A DNA stretch of 64,000 bases, taken from positions 86,589-150,588 of the forward strand of contig NZ_JADQDB010000005.1 of assembly GCF_015694405.1 (NCBI RefSeq). Direction: 5' to 3'. A model generated the notes under the pieces. It worked only from the letters and a program-made list of their open reading frames with translations. It had not been told where the DNA came from and ran no database searches. Made by a program: the position numbers and the translations under genes. Of this stretch, positions 20,009 to 33,827 are shown in pieces (positions within the stretch are counted from its first letter, which is position 1; each line of letters begins with the position of its first letter). The DNA is from Pelagibacterium limicola (GTDB lineage Bacteria; Pseudomonadota; Alphaproteobacteria; Rhizobiales; Devosiaceae).

Positions 20009-20025
20009 TTGGCACGCTTCTTGCG
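20009..20025 (+). promoter_or_regulatory. Sigma-54 promoter of urtA
   Basis: TTGGCACGCTTCTTGCG matches the -24/-12 consensus (TTGGCACG-N4-TTGC) with exactly 10 bases between the GG and GC doublets. It lies 42 bases before the urtA ATG, so transcription should begin near 20036. This predicts activation by an enhancer-binding protein, most likely NtrC under nitrogen limitation. The same core, GGCACGCTTC, is found before ureE. Confidence 0.85.
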
Positions 20026-20066: not shown

Positions 20067-21359
20067 ATGACAGACTGGACCAAATATAGGAACTTGACGC
20101 TGGCGGGGCTTATGGGCGCGAGCCTTCTTTCCATGCCGGTAGCAGCACAAGAAGGCGAGCCGATCAAGGTCGGCATTCTTCACTCGCTATCGGGCACGAT
20201 GGCGATTTCTGAAACTACGCTCAAGGACACGATCCTGTTCATGATCGAACAGCAGAACGCCGCCGGTGGTGTTTTGGGCCGTCCGCTCGAAGTCGTGACC
20301 GTCGACATCGCATCCGACTGGCCTCTGGCCGCCGAACTCGCACGGCGCCTGATCGAAGTCGATGAAGTCGACGTCGTCTTTGGCTGCTGGACATCGGTCT
20401 GCCGCAAGTCGGTTCTGCCGGTATTCGAAGAGCTCAACGGGCTGCTCTTCTACCCCGTCCAGTACGAGGGTGAAGAATCCCAGCGCAATGTGTTCTACAC
20501 CGGCGCATCCCCCAACCAGCAGGCTATCCCTGCCGTCGACTACCTCATGAACGAGGAAGGCGTCGAACGCTGGGTGCTTGCCGGCACCGACTATGTCTAC
20601 CCCCAGACCACCAACCTCATCCTCGAGCAATATCTCAAGGATGCCGGTGTTGCTGCCGAAGACATCATGATCAACTACACCCCGTTCGGGCATTCGGACT
20701 GGCAGACGATCGTTTCCGACATCGTCGCTTTCGGTTCGGAAGGCAAGAAGACGGCAGTGGTCTCGACCATCAATGGCGACGCTAACGTGCCGTTCTACCG
20801 CGAACTGGGCAATCAGGGCGTGGCCGCTGAAGACATCCCGGTCGTTGCGTTCTCTGTGGGTGAAGAAGAGCTTTCGGGCTTCGACACCACCCCGCTGGTC
20901 GGCCACCTTGCCGCCTGGAACTACTTCATGAGCGTCGATACGCCTGAAAACGCGGAATTCATCGCCGCTTGGCATGACTTCATCGGCGATGACAGCCGCG
21001 TCACCAACGACCCGATGGAAGCCCACTATATCGGCTTCAACCTCTGGGTTAAGGCCGTGGAAGCTGCCGGCACGACCGATGCCGATGCCGTGATCGACTC
21101 CATCGTCGGCCAGGAAACACCGAACCTGACCGGTGGCATCGCGACCATGCTGCCCAACCACCACATCACCAAGCCTGTCCTGATCGGCGAAATCCAGGAA
21201 GACGGACAGTTCTTTGTGGTCTGGGAAACAGACGGTCTGGTCGAAGGCGACGCATGGTCCGACTTCCTGCCCGGCTCGATGGACCTGATTGCCGATTGGA
21301 CCGATCCGATCAACTGCGGCAACTACAACACCGTCACCGAAACCTGCGGCGGCAGCTAA
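20067..21359 (+). CDS. urtA: Urea ABC transporter, substrate-binding protein
   Basis: About 430 residues from the ATG at 20067, which has GGAGGGAC upstream. A signal peptide ends near VAAQEGEP. The mature part is a type I periplasmic binding protein of the branched-chain amino acid/urea class (VGILHSLSGTMAISE, FGCWTSVCRKSVLPVFEE, LFYPVQYEGEE, MEAHYIGFNLW), a pattern specific to UrtA. It binds urea in the periplasm for UrtBCDE. It is the first gene of the locus, behind a sigma-54 promoter, and is followed by a hairpin at 21386-21409. Confidence 0.96.
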   Translation: MTDWTKYRNLTLAGLMGASLLSMPVAAQEGEPIKVGILHSLSGTMAISETTLKDTILFMIEQQNAAGGVLGRPLEVVTVDIASDWPLAAELARRLIEVDEVDVVFGCWTSVCRKSVLPVFEELNGLLFYPVQYEGEESQRNVFYTGASPNQQAIPAVDYLMNEEGVERWVLAGTDYVYPQTTNLILEQYLKDAGVAAEDIMINYTPFGHSDWQTIVSDIVAFGSEGKKTAVVSTINGDANVPFYRELGNQGVAAEDIPVVAFSVGEEELSGFDTTPLVGHLAAWNYFMSVDTPENAEFIAAWHDFIGDDSRVTNDPMEAHYIGFNLWVKAVEAAGTTDADAVIDSIVGQETPNLTGGIATMLPNHHITKPVLIGEIQEDGQFFVVWETDGLVEGDAWSDFLPGSMDLIADWTDPINCGNYNTVTETCGGS

Positions 21360-26587: not shown

Positions 26588-26890
26588 ATGAACCTTACAC
26601 CGCGGGAGAAGGACAAGCTGCTCGTCTCGATGGCAGCCATGGTGGCGCGGCGCAGGCTCGAGCGCGGGGTCAAGCTCAATCATCCCGAAGCCATAGCGCT
26701 GATCACGGACTTCGTCGTCGAGGGCGCGCGCGATGGCAGGGCAGTGCCTGACCTGATGGAGGCCGGCGCTCATGTCATTACCCGAGAACAGGTGATGGAA
26801 GGGGTCGCGGAAATGATCCACGACATCCAGGTCGAGGCGACGTTCCCCGACGGCACCAAGCTCGTCACCGTCCATAACCCCATCCGTTAG
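26588..26890 (+). CDS. ureA: Urease gamma subunit
   Basis: A 100-residue protein, [20 protein letters not shown]..., containing [11 protein letters not shown] and [12 protein letters not shown] and ending with [18 protein letters not shown], the classical UreA pattern and length. The start at 26588 has GGGGGAGA upstream. It assembles with UreB and UreC into the (alpha-beta-gamma)3 enzyme. Nine bases separate it from ureB. Confidence 0.97.
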
Positions 26891-26899
26891 GAAGAACCG

Positions 26900-27205
26900 A
26901 TGATCCCCGGAGAAATCATCACCGCGCCCGGCGAAATCGAACTCAATGCGGGCCGGGGCACGGTAACCCTGACCGTCGCCAATACGGGCGACCGTCCCAT
27001 CCAGGTGGGTAGCCACTATCATTTCTACGAGACCAACGAAGGCCTGCGCTTTGATCGCGAAAAGGCCCGGGGTTACAGGCTCGACATTGCTGCGGGTACC
27101 GCGGTTCGGTTCGAGCCCGGCCAAACGCGCGACGTTACTTTGGTCCCCTTGGCCGGAAGCCGTACGGTTTTCGGCTTCAACAACAAAGTTGCAGGCACGC
27201 TGTGA
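26900..27205 (+). CDS. ureB: Urease beta subunit
   Basis: A 101-residue protein ([19 protein letters not shown]...), with the conserved [17 protein letters not shown] and [16 protein letters not shown]. The length is standard. Unusually, ureC does not follow directly: an antisense gene lies between, and ureC begins 775 bases later. Confidence 0.97.
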
Positions 27206-27300: not shown

Positions 27301-27840
27301 CTAGGCATCCACGAACAGCACGACGTCACCCGAACCATGCATCCAGACGGCAACGACGTCGTCCGCCGCATAACCTTCGGCTTCAAGCGCGGCGACGAGT
27401 TCGGTCTTGGCCGCGATGTCATCCTGCAGGGCCGAAATGTCGCCCTCGAACTGGGCGCGCGTGTCGGCAACTACGGAAGCATCGCCACCGTCATTGGCCG
27501 CAAGATCGGAAATTGCCACGACCTCGATATTGGCCGTACCGTTGATCACATCGAGGTTAAGCGCACCAGACGACTGAATGGCCGCCTCAAGGTCGGCATG
27601 GGTCAATTCGTCGACATTCACGCCGGCCTCTGCGCCGGCATCGATAGCTCCGTCGACCGTACCAGCGCCAACACCGGCATCCACGCCGATACCGGCATCG
27701 ACCCCACTATTGTCGCCACCCAATTCGACGCCAACACCGCCGTCAAGACCAACCCCGAGGTCGGTATCCTGCGCATTGATAGCGATAGGGGCCGCAAGGG
27801 CCATGGCAGTGCCAAGTGCAAGAGCAGAGAGCTTCTTCAT
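27301..27840 (-). CDS. Secreted acidic Gly/Val/Asp-rich protein of unknown function
   Basis: A 179-residue protein with a clear signal peptide (MKKLSALALGTAMALAAPIAINAQD). Residues 25-70 are a low-complexity run of short units such as GVG, VDAGIG and VDAGVGAG. The remainder is acidic and alpha/beta-like (TANIEVVAISDLAAN, ALEAEGYAADDVVAVW), ending in VVLFVDA. It has almost no basic residues, as expected for a periplasmic or extracellular protein of a salt-adapted cell (inference). It is encoded opposite to the urease genes and has its own terminator. Not recognised as a named family. Confidence 0.75.
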   Translation of the reverse strand: MKKLSALALGTAMALAAPIAINAQDTDLGVGLDGGVGVELGGDNSGVDAGIGVDAGVGAGTVDGAIDAGAEAGVNVDELTHADLEAAIQSSGALNLDVINGTANIEVVAISDLAANDGGDASVVADTRAQFEGDISALQDDIAAKTELVAALEAEGYAADDVVAVWMHGSGDVVLFVDA

Positions 27841-27980: not shown

Positions 27981-29693
27981 ATGCCTGCCAAAATAGCCCG
28001 AACGCTTTATGCCGACATGTACGGTCCGACCACCGGCGACAAGGTGCGCCTGGCCGATACCGAGCTTTTCATTGAGGTTGAGAAGGACTTCACCATCTAC
28101 GGGGAAGAGGTGAAGTTCGGCGGCGGCAAGGTCATCCGCGACGGAATGGGACAATCCCAAGTGACGCGCGCCGATGGCGCCGTCGATACCGTCATCACCA
28201 ATGCGCTGGTGCTTGACCATACCGGCATCTACAAGGCCGACATCGGCCTGAAGGATGGACTGATCGCTGGTATCGGCAAGGCCGGCAATCCAGACACGCA
28301 GCCCGGCGTCAGCATCATCGTGGGGCCCGGAACCGAAGCGATCGCAGGCGAGGGCAAGATCCTGACCGCCGGTGGATTCGATGCTCATATCCACTTCATC
28401 TGCCCACAGCAGATTGAGGAAGCGTTGATGAGCGGGCTCACCACCATGCTCGGCGGCGGCACCGGCCCTGCACATGGAACGCTGGCCACGACCTGCACGC
28501 CCGGCGCCTGGCATATCGGAAAGATGATCCAGAGCTTTGACGCCTTCCCCATGAACATTGCGCTTGCCGGCAAGGGCAATTCCTCCAGGCCCGAAGCGCT
28601 CGTTGAAATGATCCTGGGCGGCGCGGCGGCACTCAAGCTCCACGAAGATTGGGGGACGACACCGGCGGCAATCGACAATTGCCTGTCGGTGGCCGACGAT
28701 TACGACGTTCAGGTGATGATCCACACCGACACGCTCAATGAATCGGGATTCGTCGAGGACACTATCGCCGCCTTCAAGGGCCGCACTATCCACGCCTTCC
28801 ACACCGAAGGCGCCGGGGGCGGCCATGCACCCGATATCATCAAGGTTTGCGGGCTGGAAAACGTCATCCCCTCATCGACCAACCCCACCCGTCCCTATAC
28901 GGTCAACACGCTGGCCGAGCATCTCGACATGCTGATGGTCTGCCACCATCTCGATCCCTCGATCCCCGAAGACGTCGCCTTCGCGGAAAGCCGCATCCGC
29001 AAGGAAACCATCGCTGCCGAAGATATCCTCCACGACATGGGCGCGTTCTCGATCATTTCGTCGGACAGCCAGGCGATGGGGCGGGTCGGCGAGGTGATCA
29101 TCCGCACCTGGCAGACCGCAGACAAAATGAAGCGCCAGCGGGGACGGCTGCCTCAAGAGACAGGCGACAACGACAATTTCCGCGCCAAGCGCTATGTGGC
29201 CAAATATACGATCAACCCCGCCATTGCGCATGGCATTGCCGAGCATATCGGTTCGGTTGAGGTCGGCAAACGTGCCGATCTGGTTCTCTGGAGCCCTGCC
29301 TTTTTTGGCGTGAAACCGGAAATGGTGCTGCTGGGCGGCATGATAGCGGCGGCCCCAATGGGCGATCCCAACGCCTCGATTCCAACGCCGCAGCCCATGC
29401 ACTACCGCCCCATGTTCGGCGCCTACGGCAAGGCGATTGCCAATACCTCCATCACCTTTGTCTCCAAGGCCGCGTTCGAAAGCGGTCTCCAAGAGAGGCT
29501 CGGTGTAGACAAGGGGATGCTCGCGGTCGGCAACACCCGAGGCGGCATCGGGAAAAAAGCGATGATCCACAACAGTGCGACCCCGCAGGTAACGGTCGAT
29601 CCGGAAACCTATGAGGTCCGTGCCGATGGAGAACTCCTCACCTGCGAGCCTGCCGAGGTGCTTCCCATGGCGCAGCGGTACTTCCTGTTCTGA
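27981..29693 (+). CDS. ureC: Urease alpha subunit
   Basis: A 570-residue protein of standard length. The nickel ligands and catalytic residues are in place: [11 protein letters not shown], the carbamylated lysine in [33 protein letters not shown], the flap [13 protein letters not shown] with catalytic His, and the aspartate ligand in [12 protein letters not shown]. It hydrolyses urea to ammonia and carbamate in the cytoplasm. GGAGGAGTTG precedes the ATG. Transcription probably comes from the urt/ureDAB transcript, as no sigma-54 site is seen in 27841-27980. Confidence 0.98.
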
Positions 29694-29800: not shown

Positions 29801-30454
29801 GTGAGCGATGTCGCGATCTTGGTAATAATTGCCGCAGTGGCGATTGTAGCTTTTCTGGCTATGTCCGACCGAAAACGAGGCAACAAGCCCTTCAAGCAAG
29901 GTTGGACGCCGAGAACCGTATCCCAAAATTTCAATACCGCGTCCGTCATCCGCGACGCGCACGATCAACTGCGTGTTGTCACCAATGCCAAGTTCGAAGT
30001 GTCCAAAGTAATGAACGCTTCGGAATACCGCGTGTTTAGGATTATTGAGAACGAAATTCGCAGACAGTGGCCGCGATATCGGGTCTTTTCTCAGACATCT
30101 CTTGGGGAGATCATCAGATCTCCGGATCCCCAAGCCCATAGTTGTATAAATTCCAAGCGGGTTGATGTCGTGGTAATTTCTCCTTTGGGGACACCTGCAT
30201 TGGTCGCTGAATATCAGGGCGGCGGACACTTTCAGAATAGTGCCGCTGCACGCGACGCCGTAAAGAAAGAGGCATTACGCCGGGCGGGTGTCGCTTATCT
30301 GGAAATACTAGAATCATCTTCGGACACCGACATTATCACCTTGATCCGTCGTGAGATGGTTCAAGAATCTGATGGTTCACGAGCTCAAGCTCCGGCATTT
30401 AGACAGCTGAATTCGCCCCAACCGACATGGAAAGGAGCGACGGCGCGAGAGTAG
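29801..30454 (+). CDS. DUF2726 domain protein, membrane-anchored
   Basis: 217 residues from a GTG start. An N-terminal hydrophobic helix (about 4-22, VAILVIIAAVAIVAFLAM) is followed by a soluble domain resembling DUF2726. Its conserved part, SKRVDVVVISPLGTPALVAEYQGG, has the D...E-x-Q arrangement of PD-(D/E)XK nuclease folds, then KKEALRRAGV. It is visibly more AT-rich than neighbouring genes, suggesting later acquisition. It lies between ureC and azlC without clear linkage to either. Nuclease activity is only a fold-based guess. Confidence 0.72.
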   Translation: MSDVAILVIIAAVAIVAFLAMSDRKRGNKPFKQGWTPRTVSQNFNTASVIRDAHDQLRVVTNAKFEVSKVMNASEYRVFRIIENEIRRQWPRYRVFSQTSLGEIIRSPDPQAHSCINSKRVDVVVISPLGTPALVAEYQGGGHFQNSAAARDAVKKEALRRAGVAYLEILESSSDTDIITLIRREMVQESDGSRAQAPAFRQLNSPQPTWKGATARE

Positions 30455-30531
30455 CAGAATAATTTCAGCTATCGAGAGCGCGAATGACCTGCTAGGTATC
30501 AGACACCGGCAGTTCGATATATCCCATCCCA

Positions 30532-31239
30532 ATGCCCCAATCTTTCCCCCTCGATAGTTTTCGCTCGGGCATGCGATCCAGCCTTGCCGTAACGCTGGGC
30601 TATTTTCCGGTTGGTATCGCTTTTGGCATTGCAGCGGCACGGGCCGGATTTTCGGTTTTTGAGGCCGGGTTCCTCTCGGCCATCATCTATGCCGGATCGA
30701 GCCAGTTTCTGGTGGTAGCCTTGCTCGGTTCCGGCGCACCGCTAGTCGTTACGGCGCTCTCCATTCTGGCGACCAATCTTCGCCACGTGCTCTATGCGCC
30801 CGCCATTCTTGAAAAGGCACGCGACCGGGCCGCGACCCGTTATGCCTGGGGTTGGTCCGGCGGGTTGAGCGACGGCGTGTTCGGGGCCGCAATCGTTGCG
30901 CTCAATAAATCCCGCGAGCATTTCTCCGAGCGCTTCATGTTCGGGCTCGGCCTGGGACCATATTTGTCATGGCTTTTCGGCACCATCGCCGGGGCGCTTT
31001 TTTCAGGCGCGGTGTCAGGCTATCCGGTGGTCGATGCCGCGCTCGGCTTTCTGATGCCCGCCTTGTTTCTTGCCATGCTGCTGGCAATGGTTTCGCGGCG
31101 CACGCTTGGCGTCGTCGCCGTCACCATTCTGGCGGCCATTCCTTTGACGCTGTTTGTCTCGACCACCGTCGGCATTGTTGGCGGCATGGTGGCCGGGGCG
31201 CTTTCCGGCCTTGTTGACTGGAGGAGGCTCGGCAAATGA
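30532..31239 (+). CDS. azlC: AzlC family branched-chain amino acid exporter, large subunit
   Basis: A 235-residue membrane protein with the family's opening LGYFPVGIAFGIAAARAGFSVFEAGFLSAIIYAGSSQF and LATNLRHVLYAPAI. About five or six hydrophobic helices are seen. With AzlD it forms a two-component exporter of branched-chain or other amino acids. It overlaps azlD by ATGA. Its place inside a urease cluster is unusual; the cargo is unknown. Confidence 0.9.
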   Translation: MPQSFPLDSFRSGMRSSLAVTLGYFPVGIAFGIAAARAGFSVFEAGFLSAIIYAGSSQFLVVALLGSGAPLVVTALSILATNLRHVLYAPAILEKARDRAATRYAWGWSGGLSDGVFGAAIVALNKSREHFSERFMFGLGLGPYLSWLFGTIAGALFSGAVSGYPVVDAALGFLMPALFLAMLLAMVSRRTLGVVAVTILAAIPLTLFVSTTVGIVGGMVAGALSGLVDWRRLGK

Positions 31240-31556
31240 ATACCGATCTGCTCATCACCGCCCTGATTGTCGGCATTGGCACCTGGCTGATGCGCTTTCT
31301 GCCCACGCGGATCGATACAAGTGCCATCACGCCGGACGGCCCCGTCAGCCGGTTTCTCGATGCTACCGGCCCGGCGGCCATCGCGGCATTGTGCGTGGCA
31401 TCCTTCTTGCCCATGATGGAAGCAGATTGGAGTGCATTGACGATGCTGGCCGCAGGGGTGGCTGGAACATTTCTGGGCTTCCGCTTGCGCCGGGATATAT
31501 CGCTGGCCTGCGTTTGCGGTGCGGCGGCCTATGGGCTGGCATATTGGCTGGTGTGA
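31236..31556 (+). CDS. azlD: AzlD family transporter, small subunit
   Basis: A 106-residue protein with three to four hydrophobic segments. It shows the AzlD pattern GIGTWLMRFLPTRID, then FLDATGPAAIAALCVASFLP. It is translated from an ATG overlapping the azlC stop, as usual for this pair. Confidence 0.88.
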   Translation: MNTDLLITALIVGIGTWLMRFLPTRIDTSAITPDGPVSRFLDATGPAAIAALCVASFLPMMEADWSALTMLAAGVAGTFLGFRLRRDISLACVCGAAAYGLAYWLV

Positions 31557-31632
31557 CACGCCGCCTTGGACTCGTCATCGAACTGGATTAGGTTTCGTTC
31601 AATCGTCATCCGGTCCTTGAGGAGAAGGTCCC

Positions 31633-32001
31633 GTGAAAAAATTCATTGTAGCGGCAGCGTTGGGCTTGGCCGCCTTTCCAGCGCCAGCCGTCGAAACGTC
31701 GATGCAGCTCGTCCTCACCCTTGAGGGCAACGCGCAACGGGATGTCGTTATCTATCAGTGCCAGGGGATCGATGACTCCTTGACGGTCGAATACGTCAAT
31801 GCCCACCCGATCTTCCTCGCCATTGTGCCGGTCGACGGTGAACGCCTGATTTTCGTCAACGTCATTTCTGCCTCGGGCGCCCGTTATGCCTCCGGCCAAT
31901 ACGTGTGGTGGTCGCGTGGCAACGATGCCCAGCTTTTTGACGAGATGGCCGGCGAGGATGCCGAGCCGGTCTCATGCTTTGCCGACGCCGATACGCCCTG
32001 A
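31633..32001 (+). CDS. MliC-like lysozyme inhibitor / periplasmic protein
   Basis: A 122-residue protein with a signal peptide ([21 protein letters not shown]; no lipobox cysteine seen). The mature part carries the MliC pattern: [28 protein letters not shown], then [21 protein letters not shown] and a late cysteine. MliC proteins inhibit c-type lysozyme in the periplasm. A sigma-54 promoter for ureE begins six bases after the stop codon. Confidence 0.78.
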
Positions 32002-32006
32002 GGGCA

Positions 32007-32023
32007 CTGGCACGCTTCGTGCA
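32007..32023 (+). promoter_or_regulatory. Sigma-54 promoter of ureEFG
   Basis: CTGGCACGCTTCGTGCA fits the -24/-12 consensus, again with exactly 10 bases between GG and GC. Ten consecutive bases (GGCACGCTTC) are identical to the urtA promoter. It would start transcription near 32034, 27 bases before the ureE ATG. This gives the nickel-insertion genes their own nitrogen-controlled promoter, although they are separated from ureABC by other genes. Confidence 0.8.
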
Positions 32024-32060
32024 TCGGCACAACGGACATTGGATCAGTCGGGGGAAGAAG

Positions 32061-32525
32061 ATGCGTGTGGTAGGACACGATCACAAGGGACATAATCGCG
32101 GAACGCCGTTCGATGTGGCCGTACTCGCCCATGACGAGCGGGTTTTGCGCCGCAAGCTCATAACGCTCCGGAATGGCCATGAGGTTCTCGTGGATCTCCC
32201 CCACACAGTCGCCTTCGAAACCGGCGATGTGCTTGTGCTCGAAGATGGCCGGGTCGTTGAAATCGTCGCCGGTGAAGAGGCCCTTTATGAGGTGAGAGCG
32301 CGCGACGCCCAGCACCTGGCCGAACTCATCTGGCATATCGGCAACCGCCACCTGCCCTGTCAGATCGAAGCGCAAGGCGGCCGCCTTCTGATCGGGCGCG
32401 ACCACGTAATCAGGCAGATGCTGGAAGGCCTGGGCGCCTTTGTTCGCGACGTTATCGAACCCTTCTCTCCGGTCCGGGGCGCCTATAGCGGTGACGGTCA
32501 TCATCATCACCATCATCATGGCTGA
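32061..32525 (+). CDS. ureE: Urease accessory protein UreE (nickel metallochaperone)
   Basis: About 154 residues from the ATG at 32061 ([12 protein letters not shown]). It has the UreE middle region ([17 protein letters not shown]) and ends in a run of seven histidines plus glycine, a typical nickel-binding tail. It delivers Ni2+ to UreG. A frame running back to 31974 overlaps mliC and is not used. The last 8 bases overlap ureF, and the histidine codons carry ureF's start region. Confidence 0.94.
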
Positions 32526-33198
32526 GCACGACCGGCTTTTGCGGCTGTTCACATGGCTTTCGCCGGCCTTTCCCATCGGGGGTTTCGCCTATAGCCAAGG
32601 GCTCGAAACCGCGATTGCAGACGGGCGGATCGCTGACGCGCCAACATTGGTCCATTGGCTCGAAGGCCAGCTTCACCTCGGCTTCATCCGCGCCGATGCC
32701 TATTTTCTTGCCATCGCTGCCCGCGCCGTGAGCAGCGTTGACGCGCAAGCTTTCGCCGAAACTGCAGAGCTGGCGCTTGCACTTCAGGTTACCGCCGAAC
32801 GCCATCTCGAAACATGCGAACAGGCGCGTTCGTTTCTTTTCGCTGCCGCAGCCTGGCCGGTAGAAACACCCCCCTGGCTTGATGCCGCGCTGTCCAAGCC
32901 GGTTGCGCTGCCCATCGCCTTTGGCGCGCTGGTGTCTGCGCATGGGATCGGGACACGCGCCGCAGTGCTCGGATTCATCAATGCCGCGATCGGCCAGCAG
33001 ATATCCGTTGCCGTCCGGCTCGTCCCGCTCGGCCAGACCCAGGGGCTCGCCGTCCAGGCGCAGCTGGAACCGAGGGTTACAGCACTTGCCGATGACGCTG
33101 CCGTCGCGAGTCTCGAGGATATTGGCGGTATCGCCTACGGCTCCGATATTGCCGGGATGCGGCATGAAGATCTCAACGTAAGGATATTCCGCTCATGA
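32518..33198 (+). CDS. ureF: Urease accessory protein UreF
   Basis: About 226 residues from the ATG at 32518 ([30 protein letters not shown], the hallmark start of UreF). The C-terminal helices end [18 protein letters not shown] as in the family. It bridges UreD and UreG in the urease activation complex. Its start lies inside the 3' end of ureE and its stop overlaps ureG by ATGA. Confidence 0.95.
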
Positions 33199-33827
33199 GC
33201 ACATCCAATGGTCCGCTTCGCGTCGGCATCGGTGGTCCGGTCGGCTCGGGCAAGACAACCCTCACCGAAAAGCTGTGCAAGGCCTTACGCGAGCAGTATT
33301 CGATCGGCGTCGTCACCAACGATATCTATACAAAGGAAGACGCGCTGATGCTGGCGCGGCTTCAGGCGCTGCCTGAGGAGCGTATCGTGGGGGTGGAAAC
33401 CGGCGGCTGCCCGCACACCGCGATCCGGGAGGATGCATCCATCAATCTGCGTGCCATCGCCGAGCTCGGTAGCCGCATCCCCGATCTCGATATCGTTTTC
33501 ATCGAATCTGGCGGGGACAATCTGGCCGCGACCTTCTCGCCCGACCTTGCGGACCTGACGCTCTATGTCATCTCGGTCTGCCAGGGCGAGGAAATCCCGC
33601 GTAAGGGCGGCCCGGGTATCACGCGCTCAGACCTTCTCGTCATCAACAAGGCCGACCTCGCGCCTTATGTCGAAGTCGATCTCGATGTGATGAATACCGA
33701 CGCCGCACGGATGCGGGGGGGCAAACCCCACGTTTTCACCGACCTCAAGCGTTCCAAGGGCGTCGAGGAGATCGTCGCCTTTCTCGAAAAACATGGCGGG
33801 CTCGCACGGCGGAAAACCGTGGCCTGA
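33195..33827 (+). CDS. ureG: Urease accessory GTPase UreG
   Basis: A 210-residue SIMIBI GTPase: P-loop [25 protein letters not shown], the metal site motif [15 protein letters not shown] (Cys-Pro-His), [15 protein letters not shown] and NKADLAPYV. It binds nickel and uses GTP hydrolysis for insertion. It is the last gene of the urease locus. Confidence 0.97.

Follow-up and report, generated by a model that had tools for sequence, protein, structure and literature searches.

NtrC control of ureABC and of the urt genes has been predicted for the Rhizobiales (PMC5343134), and the Ure proteins of alpha- and beta-Proteobacteria, including UreE, have been predicted to be under sigma-54 (PMC12316311), in both cases according to the parts of these papers that were available to us. 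In the accessible parts of the literature on Pelagibacterium urease, on sigma-54 at urease and urt genes and on Devosia small RNA, we found no account of a promoter before ureE. The kind of signal that we describe here is ordinary and already known; its place before ureE is instructive. It lies in a window of 64,000 nucleotides from Pelagibacterium limicola, the whole stretch of DNA that was analysed, and window coordinates below refer to this stretch.

The urea transporter and urease genes of the window all lie on the plus strand, in the order urtA-urtE, ureD, ureA, ureB, ureC, a DUF2726 gene, azlC, azlD, mliC, ureE, ureF and ureG (Table 1). An earlier note on this DNA, made from the sequence alone, had counted four unrelated genes separating ureEFG from ureC; that count is too high, as mliC is an old neighbour of ureE and the newcomers are the DUF2726 gene, azlC and azlD. 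The genus set comprises 13 genomes, that of the window included, and ureE is present in 11 of them; in all 11 its start is ATG and an mliC match stands immediately 5' of it by synteny. Outside the genus ureE was found in 30 family genomes, 27 of which were compared (G032, G042 and G047 were left out); in 23 of these, ureC and ureE have an mliC match between them.

Table 1. Coordinates of the two sigma-54 cores and of the genes around them in the window.
Feature	Position	Strand	Basis or remark
urtA sigma-54 promoter core TGGCACGCTTCTTGC	20010..20024	+	11/11 consensus letters
urtA, urea ABC transporter substrate-binding protein	20067..21359	+	
ureC	27981..29693	+	
DUF2726 gene	29801..30454	+	match among fetched cluster loci only here and in G013
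azlC, between ureC and mliC	30532..31239	+	synteny
azlD, between ureC and mliC	31236..31556	+	synteny
mliC-family lysozyme-inhibitor-like gene, old ureE neighbour	31633..32001	+	PF09864, synteny
sigma-54 (-24/-12) promoter core before ureE TGGCACGCTTCGTGC	32008-32022	+	10/11 consensus letters
ureE, urease accessory protein, His-rich tail	32061..32525	+	Pfam UreE_N, UreE_C
ureF	32518..33198	+	
ureG	33195..33827	+	UreG by gene order; Pfam CobW/HypB/UreG

Two further features of the layout were observed in passing. An antisense gene (27301-27840, minus strand) lies between ureB and ureC in a layout that resembles a noncontiguous operon; it encodes a predicted secreted protein of 179 aa without a Pfam match, is accompanied by a minus-strand terminator-like site (27276-27249), and has relatives of matching place and strand in all but two of the 10 other genus genomes, the exceptions being G003, where ureB and ureC adjoin, and G012, where the contig ends. 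The distance between ureA and ureB (window 26591-27205) is 9 bases here, against about 600-780 bp in all ten other genus genomes.

The core before ureE follows the mliC stop codon (TGA, 31999-32001) after five bases and C32007, and its end is separated by 38 bases from the ureE ATG at 32061, which is preceded by GGGGGAAG. The sigma-54 consensus is TGGCACG-N4-TTGC; measured against it, the core has GG at 32009-32010 and GC at 32021-32022 with 10 bases between them (GG-N10-GC), and its one departure is in the -12 element, which reads GTGC, the first T of TTGC having become G. A form close to this consensus, TGGCACN5-7TTGCT, is printed in the part of PMC12316311 available to us. The earlier note had reported a correctly spaced sigma-54 core before ureE that starts 6 bases past the mliC stop, and in the window both its sequence and its place are as reported. 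The ureEFG transcript is predicted to start near 32034, about 12 bases past the GC and some 27 nt ahead of the ureE ATG. In the window sequence the same letters also form a perfect inverted repeat, GCACG-CTT-CGTGC, so that the site might be taken for an operator dyad and not a promoter; we regard this as extremely improbable, since the repeat is absent from the sites of the relatives, whereas the -24/-12 letters are kept in them.

A single site of this kind is weak evidence, and loose matches to the motif are uninformative: at up to 2 mismatches there are 29 matches in the window against 26.4 expected, and the genome, with no more than 1 mismatch allowed, has 391 where the control has 411. In its exact form, TGGCACGN5TGC, the motif has 18 occurrences in the genome of 3.47 Mb (a raw count). 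The shorter core GGCACGCTTC occurs twice in the window, at the ureE site and at 20011 before urtA, where the expected mean is 0.25, and two copies were reached in 5 of 100 shuffles. The genome-wide counts, with their 18 exact forms and no excess over the control at up to 1 mismatch, are what would be seen if the site were a chance match in a GC-rich genome and ureEFG were transcribed by read-through from azlCD-mliC; such read-through would suit a run of genes that lie on one strand with short gaps from 29801 to 33827, and a terminator listing that holds no plus-strand terminator-like site in the mliC-ureE gap.

What raises the ureE site above chance is its conservation among the genus genomes. 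For each of the 11 ureE loci the analysis took in as much as about 15 kb of upstream sequence (the G012 locus is truncated at contig ends) and scanned for sites, with GG and GC required. In 10 of the 11, azlCD stand before mliC, and all 10 carry a site with 9-10 of the 11 letters in the mliC-ureE gap, starting 49-77 bp upstream of the ureE start. A comparison of promoter and gene order in relatives, which the earlier note had proposed, thus finds the site kept, within the genus, wherever azlCD splits ureEFG from ureC. It is kept as well where ureEFG are detached from urt-ureDABC, namely in G003, which has the urt-ureDABC block on the opposite strand, and in G006, which has urtA about 73 kb away on the other strand. 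Shuffling of the mliC-ureE gaps (4000 times each) gave a probability of 0.0025-0.02 per genome for a site with at least 9 of 11 letters, and these values were not multiplied because the genomes share ancestry; over the genus loci, and with the real sites counted in, the site rate per 60 bp of one strand is 0.0145 for 9/11 letters and 0.0033 for 10/11.

Pairwise identity was computed over eight genomes, leaving out G004, which has no site, and the near-duplicates G011 and G012. It is 0.735 at the consensus positions with the required GG and GC excluded, 0.634 in the 4-base spacer and 0.439 in the 10 bases upstream, and downstream of the site it is 0.514 over bases 1-5 and 0.277, close to random, over bases 6-25, part of the excess being built in by a scan that itself picked the sites. 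With position and sequence kept in 10 genomes while the downstream flanks have diverged, a chance match together with read-through is quite improbable. In 8 genus genomes ureF itself contains a further site with 10/11 letters, TGGCACCGATATTGC, at 57-60 bp from ureG; it was taken as coding sequence, by analogy with the Gly-Ser-Asp-Ile-Ala stretch of the window, in which a different Ser/Thr codon is used at that place. We consider it likely that the ureE site is a working -24/-12 RpoN promoter of ureEFG and a feature of the genus; its transcription, its activator and its control by nitrogen we infer.

In the remaining genome, G004, the layout is compact (ureC-mliC-ureE, with no azlCD), the last mliC codon is followed by ureE after 18 bases, stop codon included, and the mliC-ureE gap holds no sigma-54 site. 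This is the only genus genome with the compact layout, so the layout contrast depends on one genome, and one of uncertain tree position. The trees cover 21 of the 38 clusters. In that of urt-ureDABC, G004 stands beside G000 (SH-aLRT 80), inside a clade at 99, which makes loss of the site in G004 the simpler reading; in that of ureEFG it is not firmly placed and may be the earliest branch of the genus; its compact layout might then be ancestral. We put forward tentatively, and with somewhat less than even confidence, a history in which the sigma-54 promoter arose before ureE, in this genus, when azlCD split the cluster, was retained by selection through the rearrangements of G003 and G006 and those that gave G007, G008 and G011 another urtA leader, and was lost from G004 on the rejoining of the genes; it would need no nearby NtrC enhancer like that of urtA, and promoter gain and loss would track gene order.

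Beyond the genus the picture is different: in the 300 bp ahead of ureE, a 10/11 site is absent from all 27 family genomes, and two of them have a 9/11 match. In 24 of the 27, ureC and ureE lie 0.5-4.7 kb apart and ureE has no 10/11 site in front of it; a cluster can thus be split and do without a ureE promoter, and among the 38 clusters examined the ureE-type promoter is limited to one genus. A general rule by which sigma-54 sites would mark every cluster break was set aside as weakly supported: of 57 genes outside the genus that lie behind a gap of 600 bp or more, a single one (ureD of G022) is preceded by a 10/11 site. Further sites outside the genus stand before ureD, there the first gene, in G018 and 158 bp before mliC in G046.

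A sigma-54 site stands before urtA in 8 of the 11 genus genomes, with 9/11 letters in G004 and 10-11 of 11 in the others. In G007, G008 and G011 no sigma-54 site lies within 800 bp of urtA, although the ureE site is present; these three genomes have a different urtA leader (L144-L146), which carries the dyad TACGTCAATCGACGTA. The 'matched pair' of promoters described in the earlier note survives in part, in that the core is common to both; the flanks differ, and the two sites occur together in 7 of the 11. The presence of the core in both promoters reflects their common consensus and not duplicated sequence; duplication of the urtA promoter to ureE was rejected, as only the core is in common and the flanks differ by eye.

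The genome contains one RpoN match, above its curated cut-off, together with nine strong and three weak matches to the sigma-54 activator domain (Sigma54_activat); NtrC and NtrX are above their NCBIfam cut-offs, and the kinase before NtrC has NtrB as its best family at a score below the NtrB cut-off (NtrB-like). About 200 bp before the urtA site lies a block conserved in eight genomes, which in 6 of the 8 reads TGC-N11-GCA, the geometry of an NtrC site, and in which TGA replaces TGC in G009 and G012. The E. coli-type NtrC consensus, at up to 3 mismatches, is found in 4 of the 11 urtA regions (shuffled mean 1.2, maximum 4). Before ureE, in a search that covered essentially one motif type, an NtrC-like enhancer of the urtA type was found in 0 of 10 genomes at up to 3 mismatches (shuffled mean 1.14); none was found in 250, 350 or 800 bp, and the best matches to a matrix from the urtA sites over 800 bp lie within the shuffle range (p 0.165-0.925). 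Use of the same sigma factor at urtA and ureE has good support; for a shared activator the support is not good. Since no urtA-type enhancer was found before ureE, the co-regulation of ureEFG with urtA-ureC claimed in the earlier note keeps its common sigma factor and is otherwise something that we can only infer.

These results have a bearing on which activator would serve the promoter. The nine strong activator-domain matches, the lack of a detected urtA-type enhancer before ureE and the keeping of the ureE site where the urtA site is missing would all accord with a sigma-54 promoter that uses NtrX or another enhancer-binding protein in place of NtrC, and in that event ureEFG would answer a signal other than that of urtA. 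An enhancer before ureE may, however, be weak or of different sequence, the search having covered essentially one motif type, and there is little known use for urease helpers where urease is lacking; we think a non-NtrC activator unlikely, though not negligible. On our preferred reading, RNA polymerase with RpoN (sigma-54) would read the ureE site and start the ureEFG transcript, most likely under activation by NtrC. With azlCD between ureC and mliC-ureEFG, the gap before ureE would have acquired and kept a sigma-54 promoter of its own, and cells short of nitrogen could make the nickel-insertion helpers without depending on transcripts that run through from urtA.

Sites of the form TGGCACGCTTNNTGC number 4 in the genome of the window against 0 in the control, and stand before urtA, ureE, a small RNA and the gene of an NMT1-like transporter protein; over the 13 genus genomes the count is 18 against 12 in the control, and we do not claim the form as a marker of nitrogen sites. 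The NMT1-like ABC transporter protein, which has a TAT signal, is encoded about 200 bp after TGGCACGCTTTATGCA (L001 1501-1516), and its gene is possibly another sigma-54 target.

The 17-mer TGGCACGCTTCGTGCAT recurs in identical form at C8:136912 of the same genome (L013 1501-1615), where it precedes a predicted small RNA (about 85 nt) that has a UCCGG...CCGGA hairpin and an intrinsic terminator and lies here between TerB and YggT genes. A DNA search with the promoter in the query found the predicted RNA in 16 of 61 genomes, including 12 of the 13 of the genus, and TGGCACG-N5-TGC is kept in all 15 aligned loci. Rfam gave no family match up to E 1, the fold in the genome of the window is modestly better than that of shuffles (z -1.88), and covariation is slight, 2 of 15 pairs having changes on both sides. 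When a covariance model was built from 13 sequences of the RNA alone, leaving out the promoter, 70 of 151 genomes gave matches with E no higher than 0.001; many of these matches are weak, perhaps terminators that fit by chance. Among the best 30 matches (L189-L218), 29 have a sigma-54 site with at least 9/11 letters, 24 of them with 11/11, and the sites start 20-22 bases before the model start in 29 of 30, the exception being G051, which has no sigma-54 site at its match. The model had been built from 13 of the 30; the site is present in 16 of the 17 that were new to it, one of which (G012) had been found earlier by the query that included the promoter.

The RNA promoters of this set show no fixed base ahead of TGC in their -12 element, and GTGC at ureE is therefore a credible variant. 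Upstream of the RNA, exact TTGCA-N3-TGCAA dyads occur in 14 of 29 regions (a raw count); they are unlike the urtA dyad, and the activator of the RNA may thus differ from that of urtA. The RNA is predicted to be sigma-54-driven and is found across the family. In its description it resembles MmgR / alpha-r8 of Sinorhizobium meliloti, likewise a short alphaproteobacterial RNA (MmgR is 77 nt). In the parts of the reports available to us, MmgR is NtrC-activated, with RpoD and RpoN listed for its promoter (PMC8401924, PMC7143759), and most alpha-r8 copies, though not in all species, adjoin an N-formylglutamate amidohydrolase gene (PMC12559287); the predicted RNA in the genome of the window differs in having its TerB and YggT neighbours in place of that gene.

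Together, these observations illustrate, in a small and clean case, how a regulon might persist after its operon has been broken up: across eleven related genomes the cluster is compact, interrupted, inverted or dispersed, and the promoter is present or absent accordingly. They further pointed to a small RNA, predicted to be driven by sigma-54 and found across the family, from which studies of its regulation could begin. Compared with the NtrC-controlled sigma-54 promoters of urea uptake and urease genes, the ureE site stands apart in lying inside the cluster, in the absence of a recognisable urtA-type enhancer from the regions searched and in its restriction, among the 38 clusters, to one genus; it is like them in its consensus, in GG-N10-GC, in the kind of target and in the presence of both RpoN and NtrC in the genome.
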